The position numbers and the translations under genes were made by a program. 64,000 nucleotides of DNA from the NCBI GenBank assembly GCA_009773395.1, contig WRPI01000002.1, positions 48,413 through 112,412 on the forward strand, written 5' to 3'. Positions 8,644 through 42,247 of the stretch are shown one piece after another. Source of the stretch: Hyphomonadaceae bacterium. GTDB lineage: Bacteria > Pseudomonadota > Alphaproteobacteria > Caulobacterales > Aquidulcibacteraceae. Positions within the stretch are counted from its first letter, which is position 1; each line of letters opens with the position of its first letter. The notes beneath the pieces are model-generated. The model saw nothing but the letters and a program-made list of their open reading frames with translations. It did not search any database and was not told where the DNA came from.

Positions 8644-8807
8644 TAGAGCGGTCTGCGTTTATCTAGAATCATTTACCCTCGCAATTTTGGGCAATCTTTT
8701 GCACCAATTTCTCCAGCAATATCCCGATATTGCTTGAGAAATTGATACAAAAACCTTTCCCAAAATTGCAGCGGTTAAATGAACCTATCTAAACGCAGAA
8801 CGCTCTA
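8644..8807. repeat. 164-bp near-perfect palindrome (long hairpin element, copy 1)
   Basis: The left arm TAGAGCGGTCTGCGTTTA... and the right arm ...TAAACGCAGAACGCTCTA are inverted copies with roughly 80 percent match along about 80 bp each, meeting at gcaatatc-cc-gatattgc. The right end is exactly the TAG stop codon of the LuxR-type gene on the minus strand. Copy 2 (18043-18206) has the same length, the same TAG-N-GCG ends and a shared inner motif CCGCWGCAATTTTG. There is no T-run, so it is not a standard terminator. Confidence 0.85.
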
Positions 8808-9926
8808 GCTCATGGTTGCCAATTCGAGTTGCGATTTGGCGCCAGTTTTCTTTCGAATGGATCGCAATTGCGTGCGAACGGTGGCGACGCTATTGCCGCG
8901 TTTTTGCGCAATTTGTGACGGGGCATTGCCGGCTCTAACTTCAAAGAGTATTTCAGCTTCGGCCTGCGACAAGCCATATCTATTTGCGATTAGATTGGGT
9001 TCGCCTTCTAATCCACGGCTTATTTCTTCAAAAACCAAGAGCAAATTGGTTCTACCATAATTAAACAGCCGCAAATTTTGGTTATTTTCATGCCTGTCAA
9101 TCGGTTTGAGTTTAATCGTCGCGAAAGCAGTTTCGAAAGTCGCAGAACCAAGGCGGACAGCTTGCCTTGCACAATTTTCCCAAGCTTCGCCATGAAAAGG
9201 GTAAGTGCCGTTTTGCGCCAATAATTTCTTTGCGTGACTATTAAGTGAAAGCATTTTGCCTACGCCATTGGCAATACCAAATGGCCCGTCTAAATTTTCG
9301 AGTGCTTTGTGATTTTGGGTTGGGTCGCGCGCGATTGCGGCACGAGTGTGAATTATGGTTCCGATGCGCCGTAAATCATCATAAATACTGCCAAATCTCT
9401 CGCAATCTTCATAAGTGAATGGTTCGCCATCATAGGGACGCATTATACCAATCACGTCCCAAAAGGGTTCTTCAGGCCTAATGAGCGCCAAAAAATGTGC
9501 GCTGTGCATGGGAAAGCCATCGCTTGAAATGCGGCGTTCCATGAATTTTTTTGAATAATGTAAATTGGAAGCCAAGGCGCATTTGGGAAAACTGAGCGCC
9601 AATACTTTCTTCATGCGGTTTACGATTAAATCTTCAAAAACGCTAATATCGCTGGCAGTGCAGCCATCGCCTTCAGTCAAGTAAATTTCAAAACCTTTAT
9701 TGGCAAAATTAACACAATAAAAATCGACACCAGTTCCGCGAAACTCAGCGCGTAAGCGCGCTAAAGCATGGTGCCATTTATCGTCATTGTTGCCCAAAGC
9801 GCATTGATAAAGCTCTGCCATAATATCGGCCAAAATCGGATCAATTTGGCTGGTTGAAGGCTTGGGTGCCGGCATATTGTCAGCAAAATCAGTCAAAGAA
9901 GCAATTGGGTAAAAATATTCTGGCAT
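8805..9926 (-). CDS. LuxR-type helix-turn-helix regulator (second of a tandem pair)
   Basis: A 373-residue protein with a C-terminal GerE/LuxR HTH: LSQAEAEILFEVRAGNAPSQIAQKRGNSVATVRTQLRSIRKKTGAKSQLELA (about 318-370). The centre has a PAS-like stretch (FGIANGVGKMLSLNSHAKKLL, about 218-238). There is no receiver or autoinducer domain, so the signal is unknown. It is a diverged paralogue of the gene directly upstream, and the two overlap by one base (TAATG), so they are co-translated. It lies beside the chaperone-usher pilus operon, which it may regulate (inference). Its stop codon is the end of the 164-bp palindrome. Confidence 0.82.
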   Translation of the reverse strand: MPEYFYPIASLTDFADNMPAPKPSTSQIDPILADIMAELYQCALGNNDDKWHHALARLRAEFRGTGVDFYCVNFANKGFEIYLTEGDGCTASDISVFEDLIVNRMKKVLALSFPKCALASNLHYSKKFMERRISSDGFPMHSAHFLALIRPEEPFWDVIGIMRPYDGEPFTYEDCERFGSIYDDLRRIGTIIHTRAAIARDPTQNHKALENLDGPFGIANGVGKMLSLNSHAKKLLAQNGTYPFHGEAWENCARQAVRLGSATFETAFATIKLKPIDRHENNQNLRLFNYGRTNLLLVFEEISRGLEGEPNLIANRYGLSQAEAEILFEVRAGNAPSQIAQKRGNSVATVRTQLRSIRKKTGAKSQLELATMS

Positions 9927-10939
9927 TATTTATTACGCACCAATGCAATTAGATCAATTTGGCTTTTAGTATTGGTTTTTTCCATAATTGTCCGCAATTG
10001 CCCCCTAACAGTGTCACGCGAACTACTGCGAATTTGTGCTATTTTGCTCGCGCTATGGCCTTCATTTAATTGTTCCAATATTTCGAGCTCAGCCTGGGTC
10101 AGGCCATATGCCAATTTGAATTTTGAAAAATTGCGGGAATTTTCTGCCTGCGCCCTTTGAAAATTTATCATAATTTTGGCAGAACTGGTTTCGAGAAATT
10201 CTGATGCCAAGCAATTAAGCCGCGCCACAAATTTTTCGCCATTTATCAGGAAATCATAAGTCATTTCTCCGTTCAAAACCGTTTGATTACACGCGCCGAT
10301 CCAAAAACCGTCTTTTTCGAAATCCTTTTCGCAATGCAATTTCAAAAAACTGAGACCAACACGATTTATGGCCAAAATTTCACCTTCTTTATTGGCAATA
10401 CCCAATGGCGCTTCAATCGCCTCAATTAGCTTGGTTAGTTTTTCGGCAGAATAATCTGCAAAGTTTAGATAGGCCGAAATATCTAGGCTGCGAGTAAAAT
10501 GTGGTTGTAATAATTCAAATTCATGCTTGGCGGCGTCATCAAAATCGTCACTTTGCCCACCGATAAACAAAATCAAGCTGCCAATAAGCACTTGATTGCT
10601 CGCTTTGCAATGAAGAAGTCGGCTTGGGTTGTTTTGGATTGTGGGTTGTAAATATTCAACTTCGCCAATTGCGCATTGAAAACACAATGATTGGTCGGCC
10701 CGATTTGAAATGGCCAGAAGAACGCCATCTGCGCCAAAATGTTCCTTGATTTTTTGCAAATATTGCTTGGCATTTTCCGGCGAAAAGGCGCAGCCATATA
10801 TTTGATCTACAATGCTGATAGGCTCAAAAACACTGATTTTGGTGGGTTTATTGACAGGCGTGTTTGTGTTTTGAACTTCTGACAAGTTCAAATTGGCGCT
10901 TGCAATTTGCGCGAAAATATTGCTGCCATTTTCGTCCAT
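9926..10939 (-). CDS. LuxR-type helix-turn-helix regulator (first of a tandem pair)
   Basis: A 337-residue paralogue of the following gene. The C-terminal LuxR HTH reads LTQAELEILEQLNEGHSASKIAQIRSSSRDTVRGQLRTIMEKTNTKSQIDLIALV. A central PAS-like segment, PLGIANKEGEILAINRVGLSFL (about 168-189), parallels the paralogue. There is no phospho-acceptor domain and no membrane segment. It is transcribed away from the pilus operon at 11.28 kb, with a 340-bp shared spacer that contains a CtrA-like box. A regulatory link to the pili is inferred from position only. Confidence 0.82.
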   Translation of the reverse strand: MDENGSNIFAQIASANLNLSEVQNTNTPVNKPTKISVFEPISIVDQIYGCAFSPENAKQYLQKIKEHFGADGVLLAISNRADQSLCFQCAIGEVEYLQPTIQNNPSRLLHCKASNQVLIGSLILFIGGQSDDFDDAAKHEFELLQPHFTRSLDISAYLNFADYSAEKLTKLIEAIEAPLGIANKEGEILAINRVGLSFLKLHCEKDFEKDGFWIGACNQTVLNGEMTYDFLINGEKFVARLNCLASEFLETSSAKIMINFQRAQAENSRNFSKFKLAYGLTQAELEILEQLNEGHSASKIAQIRSSSRDTVRGQLRTIMEKTNTKSQIDLIALVRNK

Positions 10940-11280
10940 TGCGCCCCGGCCCCGAAACTCAATTGCTATTACGAATTATCGCACAAAGCATATCATAAGC
11001 GACAAATCGACGCATACCGCAAATGAGGTATGACGTAAAGGTAAAGCGGCGATTTTTTGCCATTTCCAAGCCTTGGACTGCGTAATAATCGCAAAATCCA
11101 TCAAAATAAAATGCAGACCCATACCCAATTTGAGTGATGCGGTCGAATTAACCTGTTGTTAATAATCATTATCAAGCGATTCAGGGCCGCGGGATAGAAT
11201 TATTTTACCTCCAGAGTCCAATTGCGCGAAAATGCCGAAGAATGGCCAAATGGCCACGCGGCAAATTAGTGGTGGGTGTT
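10940..11280. other. Divergent regulatory spacer between the luxR pair and the pilus operon
   Basis: It contains no gene. Visible items are a CtrA-like box at 11148-11163 and a partial short direct repeat (gaggtatgacgtaaaggtaaag, about 11025-11046). It must hold the promoters of both the luxR pair and the pilus operon. Confidence 0.6.
11148..11163 (+). promoter_or_regulatory. CtrA-like binding site ahead of the pilus operon
   Basis: TTAACCTGTTGTTAAT matches TTAA-N7-TTAA, the CtrA recognition pattern, in both half-sites with exact spacing. It lies about 120-130 bp upstream of the first pilin. The match is seen; binding is inferred, supported by a ctrA gene in this window. Confidence 0.55.
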
Positions 11281-11865
11281 ATGGGGTGTTTGCTTAGAAA
11301 AGCAATTTTGAAAGTGGTTTGTGTCGGTGCGGCTTTCGCTTGTGCGACCAATGCCCATGCCCAAAGCGTCACAATTGATGTGCAAGGCACTTTGGCCGCC
11401 GCTTGTGAATTAAATATTCCTACCACTAGCTATAATAATTTGAATATTACGGCTGCGGGTAGCCAAGTCATTCCGTTTAGTGTTGATTGCAATGCGCCAT
11501 TTGCCTATGCTCTGGTTTCAGCCAATGGCGGGCTGTTAAATGCTGCGGGTCTTGCCAATGTGGTTCCAGGATCCATGCAATTTACTGGGAATATTCCCTA
11601 TAAAGTAACCACAAATTTCACCACCGATATTGGCACTTTCGGCGATGTAAGCCTTGATGCCGCTACATTGAGTGCGGCCAATGCTTCGCCATGTATTGCC
11701 GCCACATATTCATCGACTTGCCCATTTGCGCATTCGGGAAGCGGCGCAGCAGCACAGGGGCAAAGCGCAAGCATCACGATTAACTGGCAACAAAACACCG
11801 GCGCGCCTTTGGTGGCTGGGACTTATTCCGACACGCTAACGCTGACCGTGAGGGTGCGGACATGA
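11281..11865 (+). CDS. Spore coat U domain pilin subunit (chaperone-usher, archaic type) 1
   Basis: About 194 residues. The signal peptide ends at ATNAHAQS, followed by a spore-coat-U/SCPU domain: VDVQGTLAAACELNIP opens the mature chain, internal Cys residues pair in SPCIAATYSSTCPF, and the end reads GTYSDTLTLTVRVRT, the donor-strand-acceptor type C-terminal strand of these pilins. The ORF track starts at 11242, but the ATG at 11281 with GGTGGG upstream gives a normal 27-residue signal peptide. First gene of a Csu-like operon with chaperone, usher and tip subunit downstream. Confidence 0.85.
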   Translation: MGCLLRKAILKVVCVGAAFACATNAHAQSVTIDVQGTLAAACELNIPTTSYNNLNITAAGSQVIPFSVDCNAPFAYALVSANGGLLNAAGLANVVPGSMQFTGNIPYKVTTNFTTDIGTFGDVSLDAATLSAANASPCIAATYSSTCPFAHSGSGAAAQGQSASITINWQQNTGAPLVAGTYSDTLTLTVRVRT

Positions 11866-11993
11866 CAACAAGATTTTGCGGCTTCGGGCGCAAATGTGGG
11901 TTTGGCTTGTCGCCAACCCAAAAGCAGGAGGGGATTATTTTTAGATAATTCCAAATTGTAACAAAGGGACAAAATGTCCAAGAGGAGAACAAA

Positions 11994-12611
11994 ATGAAAC
12001 GAATAATTTTTGCCGCAACATCATTTGCGGCGATGGCAATGGCGGGAAGTGCTTTTGCTGCCAACAGCCAAACAACTACCGCGTTTATGCAAGGCAATGT
12101 GCCAGATACATGTGTCTTAACCGCCCCGACAGTAACTGCGTCAACTAATGCGACTAATGTATTGCTTGGTGGTAATGGTGGTCAATCGACCATGTTACTT
12201 ACCTTAGCTGACGCAAACACCGCTAAACTTAATGCAGTTAGCTTCACCCTTACTTATGCGGATTCCTATTGCAATTATAATCATTCAGTTGGAATTAAAG
12301 CGACCAATGGTGGCCTAATAGCGTCTGATTATGATCCAGTGGCGACCAGTGGCGCATTTATCCGCCGTATTGGCTATGACGCCGATATAAAATGGATGGG
12401 TCCAGCTTTCGCGCAAGGCCCAAACCCCGGAACTTCAACAACCACTGATTTGGGCGATACACTTTCGACAGCCGCAGTGAATTTTCCAGTTGCTGGGGCA
12501 AATCGGGCAGACTTAGTGATTCAAGTTACAATTGATAATTCTAACCAGACACCAGTGGTTTCCGGTACTTACACAGAGTATTTGACACTCAAAATTGGCG
12601 CAACTTTGTAA
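11994..12611 (+). CDS. Spore coat U domain pilin subunit 2
   Basis: A 205-residue secreted pilin-like subunit. The signal peptide is KRIIFAATSFAAMAMAGSAFA. The mature chain opens with FMQGNVPDTCVLTAPTV, the usual first-Cys strand of SCPU pilins, has a second Cys in YADSYCNYNHSVGIKATNGG, and ends GTYTEYLTLKIGATL. AGAGGAG sits just before the ATG and a small GGAC/GTCC hairpin lies a few bases further upstream. It is likely a shaft subunit polymerised by the usher below. Confidence 0.85.
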   Translation: MKRIIFAATSFAAMAMAGSAFAANSQTTTAFMQGNVPDTCVLTAPTVTASTNATNVLLGGNGGQSTMLLTLADANTAKLNAVSFTLTYADSYCNYNHSVGIKATNGGLIASDYDPVATSGAFIRRIGYDADIKWMGPAFAQGPNPGTSTTTDLGDTLSTAAVNFPVAGANRADLVIQVTIDNSNQTPVVSGTYTEYLTLKIGATL

Positions 12612-12773
12612 TTTAACTTGGGTTTATTTTGCTCCTCGGCGCAATTTCTTTTCCGTCATTCGGTTTTGATTGATTGGGAAAGGGATTGCGCAAGGACAAT
12701 GGTTTTGTGTCACCACTTCAACAAGCCACAAATTTCAACATATTTCACATCGAGGATTAAGGGCTAATCGATT

Positions 12774-13523
12774 ATGAAAAATCTAATAAACAAAATATTT
12801 TTGGGGTTGCTGGCAGTTTTTGCTACAACCCAAGCAATCGCAATGGGCGTTGCGCCAGTTGTAATTGATATGAAATCAAACGGGCGCGGTGCCAGAAGTG
12901 AAATCACCGCGTCCAATACTTCGGCTTCGCCATTGCCAATTGTAGTTTCAGTTTCTGAAGCGACTATTTCAAGCACCGGGGAAGTTACAACCACACCAGT
13001 GGAAGACCAGTTTATGATTTACCCTGCGCAAGCAATTGTTGGCGCGGGTGGTGTGCAACGCTTTCGTGTGCAGTGGATCGGTGACCCCGATATGCAGCGC
13101 GGGCGCACTTTTATTTTCTCAGTGGCGCAACAACCAGTGGCTTTGACCCCCGGCACTTCGGGCATACAAATCCTCTATAATTTTGAAACCGTGGTTAGTG
13201 TCTCGCCAGCTTCGGCGCAACCAAACTTAACCATTAGCAATTCGGACTTTCAAACCGTGGGTGGCAAACGTCGCGCAACCTTAACACTTTCCAATCCAAG
13301 TGCTGCTGTTGGCTATCTTTCGGGTAGCCGCGTCACTTTGCAAGGCAAGGATGCAAATGGTCGCGTGGTTTGGTCAAAAACCTTTGAACCAAACGAAATC
13401 ATGCAAAATATTGGCGTTGGAATTGTTTCACCTGGCGCCACCCGCCAATTTACATTGCCATTCGATCTGCCCGAAGGCGGTGAAACCTTAAACGCGAACA
13501 TCAGATATTATGGCCGTCAATAA
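12774..13523 (+). CDS. Periplasmic fimbrial chaperone (PapD/CsuC-like)
   Basis: A 249-residue periplasmic chaperone with a signal peptide (LLAVFATTQAIA). Two Ig-like domains follow. The N-terminal one begins GVAPVVIDMKSNGRGARSEITASN and contains the conserved strand DQFMIYPAQAIVGAGGVQRFRVQW, where basic residues hold the pilin carboxylate. The second covers about 145-249 and ends FDLPEGGETLNANIRYYGRQ. It stabilises the pilins by donor-strand complementation and hands them to the usher, whose start overlaps this gene's end by 14 bases. Confidence 0.9.
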   Translation: MKNLINKIFLGLLAVFATTQAIAMGVAPVVIDMKSNGRGARSEITASNTSASPLPIVVSVSEATISSTGEVTTTPVEDQFMIYPAQAIVGAGGVQRFRVQWIGDPDMQRGRTFIFSVAQQPVALTPGTSGIQILYNFETVVSVSPASAQPNLTISNSDFQTVGGKRRATLTLSNPSAAVGYLSGSRVTLQGKDANGRVVWSKTFEPNEIMQNIGVGIVSPGATRQFTLPFDLPEGGETLNANIRYYGRQ

Positions 13524-16248
13524 AAACCATAAACGGCAAACGAAATCCCGGCCCTGGGATACCCCCACTGCGGTAAAACGCAGTGGGGGGACACGGCGGC
13601 TGTTGATGGGGACGGCGGCTTGTGTTGCTAATTTCATGGTCTTTGATGCAGCAATGGCGGCATCCACTGCGGCAGTGGACGCGGCAATATTTGAAACAGC
13701 AGCGGCAGTAGGAACATCCGCTGCCGATATCGAAAACGCATATGCCAATAACCCGAACTTCACTTCGCGCGCCCAAGAGCGAGCACGGCAACGCAATGCC
13801 AATTCCGAAGGTTATGAATGGCTGAGCCGTAATATGGACGTGCCATTAAGTTATTTTGACCCAGTTCAACTGGCACAAACCACCACTACTTTGCCGTTGC
13901 GATCATCAACCGCCGCACCGCGCCCCAATGCCCCATTGGAAACCGAAATCAGCGTGCCATTATCCGAGCGCGGACGTTATTTGGGCGATGTTCCAATTAT
14001 TGTGCGGGTTGATATACCCTATTTTGAAGCGGCCCGTATCGCCGAATTATTGAAAGACGTAATTTCGCCAACCGCCGCCGAACGCCTAAAAGCCCTCGGC
14101 CAAAGGGGACGGATTTCGGTTGGTGATTTAAGAGCGCTTGGCATCTCTACAGTCTGGGATCCAGGGCTTTTGACTTTGGATGTTGTGGTAACTGCGAGCG
14201 ATAAAACTGCGCGCGATATTGAACTTGCCGAAAATGAACGCACCGAGCGCGGGACTTTCACAAGACCCGCAAAATTTGCGCTTTTCACTAATCTTCGCTC
14301 ATCGCTTGATTACAATCATTTGGGCGCGGCGCAGGGCCTTAATGACCCTTATGTCGATGCCTATGTTGGTGGCCGCATTTTGGGTGTGGCATTTGAAAAC
14401 GAGCTTTCTTATGATAGTTCTGGCTTTGGCTTTCGCCGTAATGCATCAAGAATTGTGCTGGATAATGAACGCACCGCGACCCGCACAATTATTGGCGATG
14501 TAAGGCCGCAAGTTCGCGGTTATCAATATGGCGGCGATGTTTTGGGGGTATCGATTTTTTCGGCCTACCAATCAATTCAGCCATTGCGTAATTTGCGCCC
14601 ACGCGGTGAAGGTTCATTTTCGCTCAATGATCCGTCTAATGTTGATATTGTGGTGAATGGCCAAGTTGTGCGGCGACTGCGCCTTGATTCTGGGACCTAT
14701 AATCTAAAGGATTTTTCATTTCTTGACGGTCAAAACCGCGTCTCATTTGTGGTCGAAGATAGAACTGGCCGCCGCGAATTGGCGAAATTCGATGTGTTTT
14801 TTACTCGTGAATTATTGGATCCCAAACTAAATGAATGGGCGCTGACCATAGGTTCGACAACGGCGCGTGGTTTGCGTGGCCCAATTTATGATAATGGCCA
14901 AGCCTATGCTGCTGGTTTCTTGCGGCGCGGCATGAGCCAAAGCATCACCATGGGCGGCAATTTATTGATTGAAGGCCATTCGGGGATTGCGGGATGGGAA
15001 GCAGTTTTTGGCACAAAACTTGGGATTTTGTCATGGGACGTGGCGCGGTCATTTTCACAAAATGGCAATGGTAATGCGCTAAATCTTTCGTTCCAACGAT
15101 CCAATAATAATCAAAGCGGCGAACAAGGCAGCACTTGGGGCCTTGCAGCGAGCGCCAAAACCATCAATTTTGGCACTACTGATGACCAAATCACCAATAA
15201 TCAAGATATTGGAACCGCATCGGCATTTTGGTCGCGCAATCTTAATAGCCGTTCCAACTTGTCACTTGATGCGAGTTATAATTTCGCGCGCGACCGCAAT
15301 TTGGATAATTGGACGCTTCGTATGGGTTATGGCCATCGCATGGGCAATAATATCGGGCTTAGTGCCGATGTTAGCTATAATGCCAATCGCTTCACTGATA
15401 ATGTTACGTTCAGGTTGCAATTGAGCAAGCAATTTGGCCGCAATGGCAATGCCTCCGCCGCTTATGAAAGCCGCGATAGTCGCTATAGTCTAAATGCCCA
15501 AAGGTCAGGGCAGGGGGGTTTTGGCGCTTGGTCGGTTAGCGGTAATGTTGATTGCTCGCGCAATGCAAGCGGCCTTAATGCGGGTGCGTTTTTGGCGGCA
15601 AATCGCGGGGAAGTTGGCTTGTCGCATTCAACCAGTTTTTCTTCTGATTTTCAAACCAAAACCGATGAGCGCAGCTCACTTCGCTTTGCCACGTCACTTG
15701 GTTTTGCCGATGGCGCTTTTGCTTGGGGCAAACCTGTAACTGGCGGATTTGCGATTGCAAGGCCACACTCGAGCTTAAGGGGGCGTAAAGTCGTGATTGA
15801 TGGCGCAAATGGTTCGAGCCGCTTTTTTGGCCCAGCTTTGGTTTCTAATTTGCCAAATTATTCGCGGCGCGATTTGGCAGTTGATGTTGAAAATCTGCCG
15901 GCTGGTTATGATTTAGGGGCTGGTTCAATATCGGTGCGTGCGCCATATAATGCGGGTTATCGTTTGGTGGTCGGCTCGGCGGATAATTTGACTGTTATCG
16001 GGCGGGCTTTGAATGAACTTGGCCTACCAATTAGTTTCGTATCCGCCAAAGCCAAACGCCGCAGCGATGGCAAAGAAGTTGAATTATTTACCAATGCCAA
16101 TGGCATTTTTGCCGCAAATGGCTTGGGCCCCGGCGCTTGGGATATTTCGTTTAATACGGAACCCGAGACAACAAAAATTTCATTTGATTTGAATAACATC
16201 GGCGATGCGACACGCCGCTTAGGGGATTTGCGGGGCACAGTGGAATGA
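13510..16248 (+). CDS. Outer-membrane fimbrial usher (CsuD-like)
   Basis: A 912-residue usher. A long N-terminus with a late hydrophobic signal (LLMGTAACVANFMVFDAAMAAS, about 31-52) is followed by an Ala-rich linker, the N-terminal chaperone-binding domain (about 130-260), the 24-strand beta barrel with plug (SFSLNDPSNVDIVVNGQVVRRLRLDSGTYNLKDFSFLDGQNRVSFVVED, about 375-423, a usher signature) and C-terminal domains (about 740-912). It secretes and assembles the fibre at the outer membrane. Codons about 18-27 encode a perfect 11-bp hairpin (see separate entry). The stop overlaps the next ATG (ATGA). Confidence 0.93.
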   Translation: MAVNKNHKRQTKSRPWDTPTAVKRSGGTRRLLMGTAACVANFMVFDAAMAASTAAVDAAIFETAAAVGTSAADIENAYANNPNFTSRAQERARQRNANSEGYEWLSRNMDVPLSYFDPVQLAQTTTTLPLRSSTAAPRPNAPLETEISVPLSERGRYLGDVPIIVRVDIPYFEAARIAELLKDVISPTAAERLKALGQRGRISVGDLRALGISTVWDPGLLTLDVVVTASDKTARDIELAENERTERGTFTRPAKFALFTNLRSSLDYNHLGAAQGLNDPYVDAYVGGRILGVAFENELSYDSSGFGFRRNASRIVLDNERTATRTIIGDVRPQVRGYQYGGDVLGVSIFSAYQSIQPLRNLRPRGEGSFSLNDPSNVDIVVNGQVVRRLRLDSGTYNLKDFSFLDGQNRVSFVVEDRTGRRELAKFDVFFTRELLDPKLNEWALTIGSTTARGLRGPIYDNGQAYAAGFLRRGMSQSITMGGNLLIEGHSGIAGWEAVFGTKLGILSWDVARSFSQNGNGNALNLSFQRSNNNQSGEQGSTWGLAASAKTINFGTTDDQITNNQDIGTASAFWSRNLNSRSNLSLDASYNFARDRNLDNWTLRMGYGHRMGNNIGLSADVSYNANRFTDNVTFRLQLSKQFGRNGNASAAYESRDSRYSLNAQRSGQGGFGAWSVSGNVDCSRNASGLNAGAFLAANRGEVGLSHSTSFSSDFQTKTDERSSLRFATSLGFADGAFAWGKPVTGGFAIARPHSSLRGRKVVIDGANGSSRFFGPALVSNLPNYSRRDLAVDVENLPAGYDLGAGSISVRAPYNAGYRLVVGSADNLTVIGRALNELGLPISFVSAKAKRRSDGKEVELFTNANGIFAANGLGPGAWDISFNTEPETTKISFDLNNIGDATRRLGDLRGTVE
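13562..13589 (+). promoter_or_regulatory. Perfect hairpin inside the 5' coding region of the usher gene
   Basis: CCCCCACTGCG-gtaaaa-CGCAGTGGGGG is an 11-bp perfect stem with a 6-base loop, 52 bases after the usher start codon. A second palindrome with the same core, TCCACTGC-G-GCAGTGGA, lies at 13663-13679. Such a stable early hairpin would slow ribosomes or lower expression of the downstream half of the operon (inference). Confidence 0.6.
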
Positions 16249-17219
16249 AGAAGTTCATAGCTATTTCAGCTTTTATGGTTTTGGCAATTCCAAATATTGC
16301 GTATGCAGTTGCTTGCCCCGGTGCGCCCGCAAGCACTTTGGGAACAATAAACTATGACCCACTTGCAACCACTGCGACAACCGCCAATTTCACGCTAACT
16401 ATTCTGCCTTCAAACCTTGCTATCTTCCCTTCAGACCTTGGCTTTGATCAAAGGTTGCGCGCTGTGACGGTAGTAAAACAAGTGGAGGGCGGTGAAGACG
16501 AGGGGATAAGGTTTAGTTTCGAATCAATGGCAAGTTCTTCATTTTCGATTTTTGGCGATGAGACTTTTAATGGTAATGCTTCGAGTTATTCAACATGGCG
16601 CATAAATGGGGCAAGGGATAGGGCTTTGGAACTTGGCTTTATATTAGCAACCCAAAGCGGCATCGGTTCATTTCAAATTTCGATTCCAGCGGGGCAAAAC
16701 CTATCCGCCGGTGCGCATGTGGTTGAATATCTTTCTAGGGGATATTGGGAAGAACTCTACAATACCCAAACTTGCCCATATGGTAGCGGCGGAGACACAG
16801 CTATAGAAGTGAAAACTTTTACCATAAATGTGCAATCGTCAATGTCATTGAATATGACTGGCGGCGGTGTTACGGGTCTTATTGATTTTGACAATCAAGG
16901 CGGATTGGCGACCAATGCTTCTCGCTCCACCAGTGTTCGGGCACGTTCAAGTGTGCCATATAAAATCACCATGGATAGCGCGTATAATGGCTATTTGAAC
17001 TTAGATAATTCGCCCACTGCAATCGAAAAAATCGCTTACACCGCTAAATTAGGCAATGTGGCGATTTCGGAGGCCGCGCCATATATTGTGAACACGGCAA
17101 CTGGCACAAATGGGCTGGATCTTGATTTGCCATTTGAAGTCACAATCGGCAATACCGCAAACGCGCGGGCAGGATTTTACAAAGACATCATCACCCTTAC
17201 AATTGGCACGCCGCCATAA
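16245..17219 (+). CDS. Pilus tip subunit / SCPU-domain protein (CsuE-like)
   Basis: A 324-residue secreted protein with a signal peptide (ISAFMVLAIPNIAYA). It is longer than the shaft pilins and appears two-domain. The N-terminal part has Cys in VACPGAPAS and TQTCPYGSGG; the C-terminal SCPU domain (about 190-324) starts FTINVQSSMSLNMTGGGV and ends GFYKDIITLTIGTPP. Last gene of the operon, with a 4-bp overlap with the usher. In archaic pili the two-domain last subunit caps the tip and mediates surface adhesion. Its 3' end overlaps the convergent deacetylase gene by 23 bp. Confidence 0.82.
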   Translation: MKKFIAISAFMVLAIPNIAYAVACPGAPASTLGTINYDPLATTATTANFTLTILPSNLAIFPSDLGFDQRLRAVTVVKQVEGGEDEGIRFSFESMASSSFSIFGDETFNGNASSYSTWRINGARDRALELGFILATQSGIGSFQISIPAGQNLSAGAHVVEYLSRGYWEELYNTQTCPYGSGGDTAIEVKTFTINVQSSMSLNMTGGGVTGLIDFDNQGGLATNASRSTSVRARSSVPYKITMDSAYNGYLNLDNSPTAIEKIAYTAKLGNVAISEAAPYIVNTATGTNGLDLDLPFEVTIGNTANARAGFYKDIITLTIGTPP

Positions 17220-17997
17220 TCTTGCTGGCCGCTTCATTTACGTTAAGGATTTCAATATCTGCCACTTTTACGGCTTCAATGGCCTCGAGCAAAATCGCAG
17301 TGGTGGAGCCATAATCGCTGCAATCTTCGGCGACATCATGGGTGAAGAAAATTATCCAACCATTGGTTCTAATTGCTTCTTCAATATATTTATCCAAATA
17401 TTGTTTTGAATATCGGCGGTTTTCAAGTGGCACGGTTTTGAGATTGGCAAAATCCATCACAGTTTTATTCACACCGCGATAAACCCCGCGCGCAGTTTGA
17501 AATTTTTTACCCATAATTTTGCGGCTAAAAGCGTCAAATTCGCCATAGGGATAGGCAAAGCTCTGAAATTGAAAATCTGGGCCGAGAAGTTTTTGCGCGA
17601 ACACAAGGTTTTGCGATAAATCGGCTTCAATTTCACTTTGCGTCCTGCCTCTTAAGCGCGGGTGGGCATAAGAGTGGCAGGCGATTTCATGGCCAGCATC
17701 ATGCAGTCGTTCAATGTCTTCGGCGTCAAATTGCGCAATATTTTCAAAGTTTTTTTGGCAATTTGAACCTGTCAAATAATATGTCGCGCTTATTCCCGCA
17801 TCTTGCATTATTTTGGCGCCAATTGTTGCGGCTGATTTCGGAAAATCATCAAAACTAAAGCTCACAATGGGGGATTTCAATTTCGACGCAATTGGTTTTT
17901 CAGTGAAGAAATTAAGCATAGCCATTTTTGCCCGCGCAATTGCATTTGCGGGTGGCAGGTTTGGCATTTCACTAAGATTTGTCGGCTCTAATTGCAT
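17197..17997 (-). CDS. Polysaccharide deacetylase (NodB homology, CE4)
   Basis: A 266-residue CE4 deacetylase with motif 1 in PIVSFSFDDFPKSAA (metal and catalytic Asp, about 43-57), motif 2 in HEIACHSYAHPRLRGR (HSxxH metal ligands, about 107-122), motif 3-like RGVYRGVNK, and WIIFFTHDV near the C-terminus. No signal peptide is evident, so it may act on a cytoplasmic or inner-membrane exopolysaccharide or lipid-linked intermediate. No polysaccharide locus is nearby; pilus and matrix functions could be linked, but that is inference. Confidence 0.88.
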   Translation of the reverse strand: MQLEPTNLSEMPNLPPANAIARAKMAMLNFFTEKPIASKLKSPIVSFSFDDFPKSAATIGAKIMQDAGISATYYLTGSNCQKNFENIAQFDAEDIERLHDAGHEIACHSYAHPRLRGRTQSEIEADLSQNLVFAQKLLGPDFQFQSFAYPYGEFDAFSRKIMGKKFQTARGVYRGVNKTVMDFANLKTVPLENRRYSKQYLDKYIEEAIRTNGWIIFFTHDVAEDCSDYGSTTAILLEAIEAVKVADIEILNVNEAASKIMAACQL

Positions 17998-18042
17998 AAA
18001 TCACTAATAATTGATTTTAGTTATTTTTGTGCAAACAGGAAC

Positions 18043-18206
18043 TAGCGCGCCTAACGCTCAAGTTGCACAGTTTTGCCGCGCCCTTTTGCACGATTTTCGG
18101 CAACAAATATTTAGCGAATACTCCAGTATTCACCGCATATTTGTCACCAAAACTCGCACAAAATTGCTGCGGCAAATTCTATGCAACTTGAACGTTAGGC
18201 GCGCTA
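18043..18206. repeat. 164-bp near-perfect palindrome (long hairpin element, copy 2)
   Basis: The left arm TAGCGCGCCTAACGCTCAAG... mirrors the right arm ...CTTGAACGTTAGGCGCGCTA, about 80 percent matched over about 82 bp per arm, centred at gaatactccagtattc. The right end is the TAG stop codon of the DUF4167 gene on the minus strand. Same length, ends and inner CCGCAGCAATTTTG motif as copy 1 at 8644-8807. No T-run follows. Confidence 0.85.
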
Positions 18207-19046
18207 TTCCGCTTCGGCGATATTCGGGGTAGGGGCCTTCAAAAATGCTGGAGCCTCGTCACCAAAGCCTGGGGCAGTGGAGACTGCGTCATTAGAATTG
18301 CGTGGGCCGCGCGGTGGCCGCGAACGCGGTGGACGGCGGCTTGGTTCGCGATTTTCGTTTGAAGTTGCTTCATTACGAGGCTCTGAACCTTGCTCCACAA
18401 CCAAATCTGATTGCGGCGCAAATGATTGTTGTTCTTGGGGCCGATAATTTTCGCCGCGCCCATTGTCATTTTCCTGGCCATTTTCGCCATTATTGCGATA
18501 ATCGGAACGAAAACGATTGCGATTGCGGTTATTGCGGTCACGGTTATTATAGCGGCCATTATTGCCATCATCAGGGCCACGTTCGCCATTATTGCGCTCG
18601 CCATTGTTGCGCTCGCCACGATCATTACGATCATAATTACGATTGCGATTGTCGCGCATTTCGTTTTGCGGACGAGGCTCGCGCGGTTCACGGGCTTGGC
18701 CTTCGCCGGCATCATCACCCGCTTCTTCAGCTTCGTTTTCGCCGCCTTCAAAATCATCATCTTCATCATAATCAGATGGCAGGCCAGCAATTGCCAGTTC
18801 CGAACGCGGTATGAAATTGGGCATTATGCTTTTGATGAGGCGCAAATAATGCTCGGCATGTTGCAAATAATTTTCCGCTAAAACCCTATCACCCGAACCC
18901 ATCGCATCACGACCAGCTTGTTGGTAACGCTCCAAAATCGTTTGTGCTGAGCCACGGACTTTCATGTCTGGACCAACGGATTCATATGCTCGATTTGGAT
19001 TATTATTTAAGGGCTTACCGCGCCCACGACTGCGTTGTCGCTTCAT
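18204..19046 (-). CDS. DUF4167 domain protein with disordered Asn/Arg/Gly-rich tail
   Basis: A 280-residue protein. The N-terminal 75 residues are the alphaproteobacterial DUF4167 domain: RPGKPLNNNPNRAYESVGPD-type start, then AQTILERYQQAGRDAMGSGD and LAENYLQHAEHYLRLI. The remainder is low complexity, first acidic (DDFEGGENEAEEAG) and then rich in RNN/RDR repeats, ending in an RPPRSRPPRGPR patch. The composition suggests an RNA-associated protein (inference). It sits downstream of prmC on the same strand, the usual gene order. Confidence 0.85.
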   Translation of the reverse strand: MKRQRSRGRGKPLNNNPNRAYESVGPDMKVRGSAQTILERYQQAGRDAMGSGDRVLAENYLQHAEHYLRLIKSIMPNFIPRSELAIAGLPSDYDEDDDFEGGENEAEEAGDDAGEGQAREPREPRPQNEMRDNRNRNYDRNDRGERNNGERNNGERGPDDGNNGRYNNRDRNNRNRNRFRSDYRNNGENGQENDNGRGENYRPQEQQSFAPQSDLVVEQGSEPRNEATSNENREPSRRPPRSRPPRGPRNSNDAVSTAPGFGDEAPAFLKAPTPNIAEAE

Positions 19047-25697: not shown

Positions 25698-25920
25698 CAA
25701 GGAAATCGCATGTGACTTTGTCCTCCCTTGCAAATCTTCGATTTGCGGGGGAGGTGGCAGCACGAAGTGCTGACGGAGGGGGCATTAGGACACGAATTTG
25801 CGCAGCAAAAACAATAGCGTAAGCTCGCTACGCTCGCGCCCCCTCCGTCTCGCTACGCGAGCCACCTCCCCCGTAACGCTTCGCGTGACAGGGGAGGATT
25901 AACCCATATGCGATTGCCCT
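25698..25920. repeat. Cluster of palindromic extragenic repeats between convergent fliJ and flhF
   Basis: About 220 bp of nested hairpins: gcaaatc/gatttgc, cagcac/gtgctg, ctcgc/gcgag and acgc/gcgt, separated by cctccc/gggagg and gagggggc/gccccctc blocks. The whole is roughly symmetric: its ends caaggaaatcgcat...tcctccc and ggggagga...atgcgattgccct are inverted copies. A partial copy opens the window (1-50). The ends abut the TAG stops of fliJ and flhF. The layout is typical of alphaproteobacterial intergenic repeats and may end transcription from both sides. Confidence 0.8.
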
Positions 25921-42074: not shown

Positions 42075-42247
42075 CCTTGCATAGCCTCCCCCCTATTCAT
42101 AGGGGGGTGCCGAGCTTCTGCGAAGGCGGGGGGTAGCGTCGGAAGACAGGTTTCTAAAAATCACCAAATAAACTGGCTATCGCCGCTACCCCCCAGTCTC
42201 GTTTCACTCGACAGCCCCCCTATTAATAGGGGGGCGGCTAAGCAAGG
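42075..42247. repeat. Palindromic intergenic repeat with paired C6/G6 hairpins
   Basis: The outer arms ccttgcatagcc and ggctaagcaagg are inverted copies. Inside each lies a CCCCCCTAT/ATAGGGGGG hairpin (42088-42107 and 42215-42234), then ggggggtagcg / cgctacccccc as a further inverted pair around a roughly 50-base centre. The architecture resembles the 25.7-kb repeat, but the sequence is different. It separates flgL from mnmA and overlaps the spurious frame 42039-42284. Confidence 0.8.

Follow-up and report, generated by a model that had tools for sequence, protein, structure and literature searches.

Two long palindromes at stop codons as probable copies of a TA-flanked mobile hairpin in a Hyphomonadaceae bacterium

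Two 164-bp palindromes lie at the ends of minus-strand genes in a 64,000-nucleotide stretch of DNA from a Hyphomonadaceae bacterium (assembly GCA_009773395.1, contig WRPI01000002.1, positions 48,413 to 112,412; hereafter the window). We conclude that they are probably copies of one non-autonomous mobile element: a hairpin of about 160 bp that enters Y-TA-R sites and is flanked by a TA duplication. Within this family, pairing is constrained in one of the two strands, folded on its own, and the constraint is seen in variants that spread rather than in copies that have landed.

The earlier note, made from the letters of the window, had described both palindromes as beginning with TAG-N-GCG, having equal length and sharing CCGCWGCAATTTTG (minus strand), all of which is correct for both copies. 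The minus-strand RNA of 8644-8807 (copy 1) folds at -90.9 kcal/mol (z -14.6, 0/200 shuffles) and that of 18043-18206 (copy 2) at -112.4 kcal/mol (z -19.4, 0/200 shuffles). Each forms one unbranched hairpin across the full 164 nt, and copy 1 is 81% identical to its reverse complement, so the palindromes themselves are real. The two copies are only distantly related, with identities to the family consensus of 54% for copy 1 and 86% for copy 2. Nonetheless, copy 1 retains 82% of the consensus pairs, compared with at most 62% in random-substitution simulations, and copy 2 retains 100%. A covariance model of the family recognizes them with E-values of 1.7e-30 (copy 1) and 7.4e-45 (copy 2); neither palindrome has a match in Rfam 15 at the gathering score.

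Searches of the bacterium's own genome (a 17-contig draft of 2.63 Mb) indicated a dispersed family. The CCGCWGCAATTTTG pattern, allowing at most one mismatch, gave 47 genome matches compared with 2 for a reversed control, and folding around the first 20 of these sites revealed about 10 more hairpins of 160-210 nt with a like design. A blastn search with one member recovered about 29 copies. Additionally, we ran the covariance-model search of the genome and its relatives that the earlier note had proposed. The model (R1; 164 positions, 72 pairs) placed about 33 copies in the own genome, mostly full-length and dispersed, along with two diverged copies in the congener G001 (E 1e-25 and 3e-18). 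Because 116 first-look candidates were scored per genome, these copy counts are lower bounds. The model detected none in the congeners G002-G004 and none that was convincing in 20 more distant relatives, where one 95-nt match (E 3e-5) occurred in G011. Blastn in 60 relatives gave matches in the own genome only, and exact-pattern scans yielded none in GTDB genomes and two, both spurious, in IMG/VR.

Several variants of the family were noted. Two loci carry half elements with one end only, adjoining a gene end (L056 2467-2504 and L057 2142-2169), which are apparently degraded copies. Three copies (L049 1501-1706, L053 1501-1706 and L054 1488-1693) contain a nested 42-bp insert, ACTTTCGCTTCGCT(G/A)CAGGTCT(C/T)CGCGCT(A/T)CGCGCTACGGCT, found at two different places within the element and always between TTT and GT; it is a further, shorter repeat that inserts itself into the palindromic element. 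Matches to TAGMGCG...CGCKCTA in relatives were mostly due to chance. The exception is the same-family genome G005, which has different palindromes of about 53 bp with ends TAGAGCG...CGCTCTA, some of them in tandem (C67:7076-7469, C47:53-229 and C78:9887-10054), perhaps moved by machinery of the same type as the 160-bp element.

Alignment of the copies defined the ends of the element. Agreement stops exactly outside TAG.GCG...CGC.CTA, where the flanks become unrelated, and these terminal inverted repeats are present in nearly all copies. The left TA is preceded by a pyrimidine in 26/32 copies and the right TA is followed by a purine in 23/32. From the alignment ends and these flank counts, the element itself spans 160 bp, G...C, and sits at YTAR sites between two TA dinucleotides. 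We also looked for empty sites in relatives, as the earlier note had advised. At C15:310143, an element lies between two convergent genes, one membrane-protein-like (no Pfam match) and one encoding a thiamine pyrophosphate (TPP) enzyme, and both genes stop at its TAG ends. The same gene pair abuts without an element in four congeners (49-52% and 59-62% protein identity, long alignments), although the G003 locus is partial, the first gene having only 34% identity there. In G001 and G003 the overlapping stops of the convergent pair share one TA (GAT TAA / ATT TAA on opposite strands). TA stands on both sides of the copies and a single shared TA at the unoccupied arrangement, as a short TA target duplication would leave. 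Likewise, the DUF4167 gene ends ...AEAE-TAG on copy 2 here, while its orthologues in G001-G004 finish in ...AEAE or ...SE/TE, use TAA or TAG as the stop and are element-free. Dispersed copies, TA ends and unoccupied sites in congeners bear out the suggestion of a mobile hairpin resembling a miniature inverted-repeat transposable element (MITE).

The position of the copies on stop codons follows from the same design. Both window palindromes do end on the TAG stop of a minus-strand gene (LuxR/GerE-type and DUF4167), as the earlier note had reported, but this TAG is not purely a feature of the gene: it is the duplicated TA plus the first base of the element, G. Because the duplicated TA and the terminal G spell TAG on either strand, gene ends at the element read TAG. 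Across the family, 11/32 copies lie on a stop (12 gene ends), whereas of the non-coding YTAR sites up to 600 bp away 9/95 do (Fisher p 0.002), and joining the flanks restores TAA or TAG in 9/12 of the stop-sharing gene ends. For copy 2 the joined flanks give TAG. For copy 1 they give TAT (Tyr), and by this comparison of flanks the LuxR-type gene may owe its present stop to the insertion. When the TA of a TAA or TAG is hit the stop is preserved, and YTAR itself contains TAA/TAG; the excess on stop codons is thus explained by target preference together with tolerance. The proposal that stop codons are targeted therefore stands as an enrichment, while the preferred site is YTAR and dedicated stop-targeting machinery is not required. 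Other reading frames find stops 10-11 nt inside the element (GCGTTAG, GCGTAA or GCATGA at L060, L113, L046, L049, L045 and L141), so more genes end just within it.

Pairing is maintained throughout the arms by changes on both sides. Across 22 divergent copies, pairing holds in 94.9% of cells and 45/72 pairs have changed on both sides; doubly changed cells number 147, compared with 35 +/- 6 after shuffling (0/500 shuffles). Shifting the partner by 1-3 columns abolishes the covariation signal. Copies with consensus identities of 71% and 54% still have 99% and 82% of their pairs intact, where random substitution reaches maxima of 76% and 62%. This constraint is specific to one strand. The 21-copy main group offers 79 geometric pairs; Watson-Crick and G.U states segregate in 16 of them while Watson-Crick and A.C states segregate in 0 (p 3e-5), and the oriented strand is more stable than its complement in 27/27 copies, by 12-42 kcal/mol. 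Because G.U segregates and A.C does not, and because the oriented strand folds better, the constraint acts on that strand as a folded single strand. The G.U states originate by both C-to-T and A-to-G, and therefore no single mutation bias explains them.

Copies of different ages allowed us to ask when this constraint operates. Among pair states shared by at least two copies, pairing was preserved in 30 and lost in 5, whereas among private states the numbers were 26 and 32 (Fisher p 8e-5). The same division appears in pairs that left the Watson-Crick state on one side only, with 10 G.U, 0 A.C and 3 others in shared states but 11 G.U, 9 A.C and 15 others in private states. Because shared states preserve pairing and private ones do not, the one-strand hairpin is needed for spreading and landed copies mostly decay as if unconstrained.

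These results suggest a route by which the element may spread. A source copy would be mobilized in trans by an enzyme that requires one particular strand folded as a hairpin, either single-stranded DNA or RNA, and the product would join at a TA, leaving TA on both sides. Where that TA lies within TAA or TAG, the TA and the terminal G would form TAG, one gene or both convergent genes would keep their ends and the insertion would be tolerated. Landed copies would then decay without constraint. The tolerance of G.U is what RNA would show, with G.T in single-stranded DNA a weaker alternative. We only tentatively propose the scheme in full, namely a TA-inserting palindrome that spreads via a strand-specific single-stranded (possibly RNA) hairpin, with a mobilizer that is neither IS630, IS4/IS5-type nor Y1/RAYT and with ends suited to harmless landing on stops.

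Several points weigh against this interpretation. The comparison of shared and private states counts distinct pair states as events and is tree-free, and private changes may include assembly errors. A TA duplication is indistinguishable from an element with TA at one end that inserted beside a TA. Additionally, no candidate mobilizer was recovered in a search that covered three transposase families in draft sequence: IS630 (PF13358; controls positive in 3 genomes) and IS4/IS5-type DDE transposases (PF01609, DDE_Tnp_1) were not found in the own genome, and the Y1 / IS200-REP (RAYT) transposase (PF01797) was not found in the own genome either, nor in any of the five congeneric genomes searched (controls positive in all 5). 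A limited scan for an autonomous parent saw no coding element with these ends, although such a parent is not required of every MITE family.

A possible but doubtful alternative is that the element is a conventional double-stranded DNA MITE, in which an IS630/Tc1-mariner-type transposase (or an IS5/IS427-type enzyme, with its YTAR preference) reads the terminal repeats only and the long hairpin is a by-product of origin. ERIC, Correia and RUP elements regularly have TA termini, and IS630-Spn1 is the presumed mobilizer of RUP (PMC2229807); the YTAR preference of the present element fits as well. However, this explanation leaves the selection on pairing along the whole arm of propagated variants, with G.U tolerated and A.C not, unaccounted for, and no IS630 or IS4/IS5-type transposase was found in the own genome.

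Pairing could also be kept by arm-to-arm correction, that is, template switching within the palindrome, and not by selection. Quasi-palindrome correction is a recognized mutational process and would yield double changes. It is unable, however, to yield the bias of G.U over A.C (16 to 0), and the recent private changes show no compensation, which makes this explanation improbable.

It is very unlikely that the host keeps the copies because the transcribed hairpin stabilizes, processes or terminates the upstream mRNA. The hairpins at gene ends are indeed very stable, their constraint is RNA-like in allowing G.U, and 12 gene ends stop exactly on an element. However, the departures in private states are those expected without constraint, copies occur in both orientations relative to tandem genes (6 same, 4 opposite), divergent genes flank 8 copies, a T-run is not consistently present at the ends and the element is absent from congener orthologues. 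Private decay, mixed orientation and divergent-gene sites argue that the hairpin is required during mobilization, and the mRNA 3'-end stabilizer and processed RNA offered by the earlier note find no support as general roles. An intrinsic terminator, with its short GC-rich stem and immediate T-run, was also rejected: the element ends in CGCTCTA or CGCGCTA followed by variable sequence, and small terminator-scan hits near copy 2 correspond to the apical hairpin and one terminal arm, with no dedicated terminator. An integron attC site was considered because GTTGGAT/ATCCAAC resembles core sites, and was rejected since the arrangement is inside-out and subgroups have lost the motif.

Hardly credible is a protein-coding palindrome like those of Rickettsia, kept by read-through of one frame in host proteins; one consensus frame is open for 54 codons with a slightly more variable third codon position, but a stop interrupts this frame in 16/27 copies, stops are present at the ends and the copies lie between genes, not inside them.

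The features of the two window copies and the genes that end on them are collected in Table 1.

Table 1. Coordinates of the two palindromic copies, their parts and the adjoining genes in the window.
Feature	Position	Strand	Basis or remark
Copy 1, diverged full-length palindromic element including both TA ends	8644..8807	-	Fold, covariance model, retained pairs
Copy 1 left TA (target duplication)	8644..8645		Sequence; ends common to family
Copy 1 right TA	8806..8807		With element base C8805 gives the TAG stop of the minus-strand LuxR-type gene
LuxR/GerE-type regulator gene, end on copy 1	8805..9926	-	PF00196 E 3e-5
Copy 2, full-length, TAGCGCG subgroup, both TA ends included	18043..18206	-	Fold z -19.4, covariance model
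Copy 2 left TA	18043..18044		Sequence
Copy 2 right TA, within TAG stop of DUF4167 gene	18205..18206		Sequence; element-free congener orthologues
Copy 2 hairpin 5' arm, contains CCGCAGCAATTTTG	18126..18206	-	Fold, pairing analysis
Copy 2 apical loop	18122..18125	-	Fold
Copy 2 hairpin 3' arm	18043..18121	-	Fold, pairing analysis
DUF4167 gene, end on copy 2	18204..19046	-	PF13763 E 4e-27

Two tandem, overlapping LuxR/GerE-type genes occupy 8805-10939 (minus strand) and share a mutual identity of only 24%; no orthologues of them were found in the examined stretches of three congeners, near the DUF4167 region. An ungapped palindrome scan of the window returned copies 1 and 2 and, in addition, a GC-rich repeat at 42075-42247 that is unrelated to them. 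This repeat, of a separate family, is an imperfect palindrome of 173 bp whose 33-bp arms are 91% complementary and whose ends read GGGGGG/CCCCCC. Additionally, a 218-bp inverted repeat at 25701-25918 has 58-bp arms (71% complementary) and GGGGGAGG motifs, and resembles GC-rich intergenic repeats in the congener locus L097.

In comparison with known systems, the element is MITE- and ERIC-like in its working and REPIN-like in its evolution. It shares with MITEs dispersed copies with defined ends, terminal inverted repeats, a short duplication and unoccupied sites in relatives. ERIC (IRU/RU-1; 127 bp) of enterobacteria is likewise a full-length imperfect palindrome with TA termini, intergenic dispersal and an unknown mobilizer (PMC2229807), but differs in sequence, length and host class. 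YPAL/RU-2 of Yersinia is similar in length (about 168 bp) and long-hairpin anatomy, and its unoccupied sites are known (PMC2229807); it lacks TA termini and makes duplications of 3-26 bp, in contrast to the TA termini and 2-bp TA seen here, so the element is not a YPAL. By description, QMITE of Coxiella, RUP and Correia/NEMIS are also alike, being short elements with TA ends or inverted repeats and with transcripts that form long hairpins (PMC5896051, PMC10969869, PMC2229807), although RUP has a candidate IS630 partner and the present element has none. The Rickettsia palindromic elements (RPE) are alphaproteobacterial palindromes of 105-146 bp (PMC2229807) that insert in-frame inside genes and are translated, whereas this element sits at gene ends or between genes and is thus not an RPE.

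In REPINs the hairpin is the replicating unit and compensatory changes are common (PMC3116915), and TnpA-REP processes single strands in a strand-specific manner (PMC8266576). The element resembles the REPIN / REP-RAYT systems in its hairpin unit and in compensatory changes that keep the hairpin of one strand, but it falls outside them as a TA-flanked 160-bp hairpin with no GTAG-tagged REP pair and no Y1 (RAYT) in the five congeneric genomes. The family bears on the spread of TA-ended palindromic repeats, ERIC among them. The TA plus G design offers a simple reason for tolerance exactly at gene ends, including a single TA common to two overlapping stops. Moreover, the graded ages of the copies separate two questions, whether the hairpin is needed to spread (yes, on one strand) and whether it is kept afterwards (mostly no), and the test of shared against private pairs can be applied equally to ERIC, YPAL and QMITE.

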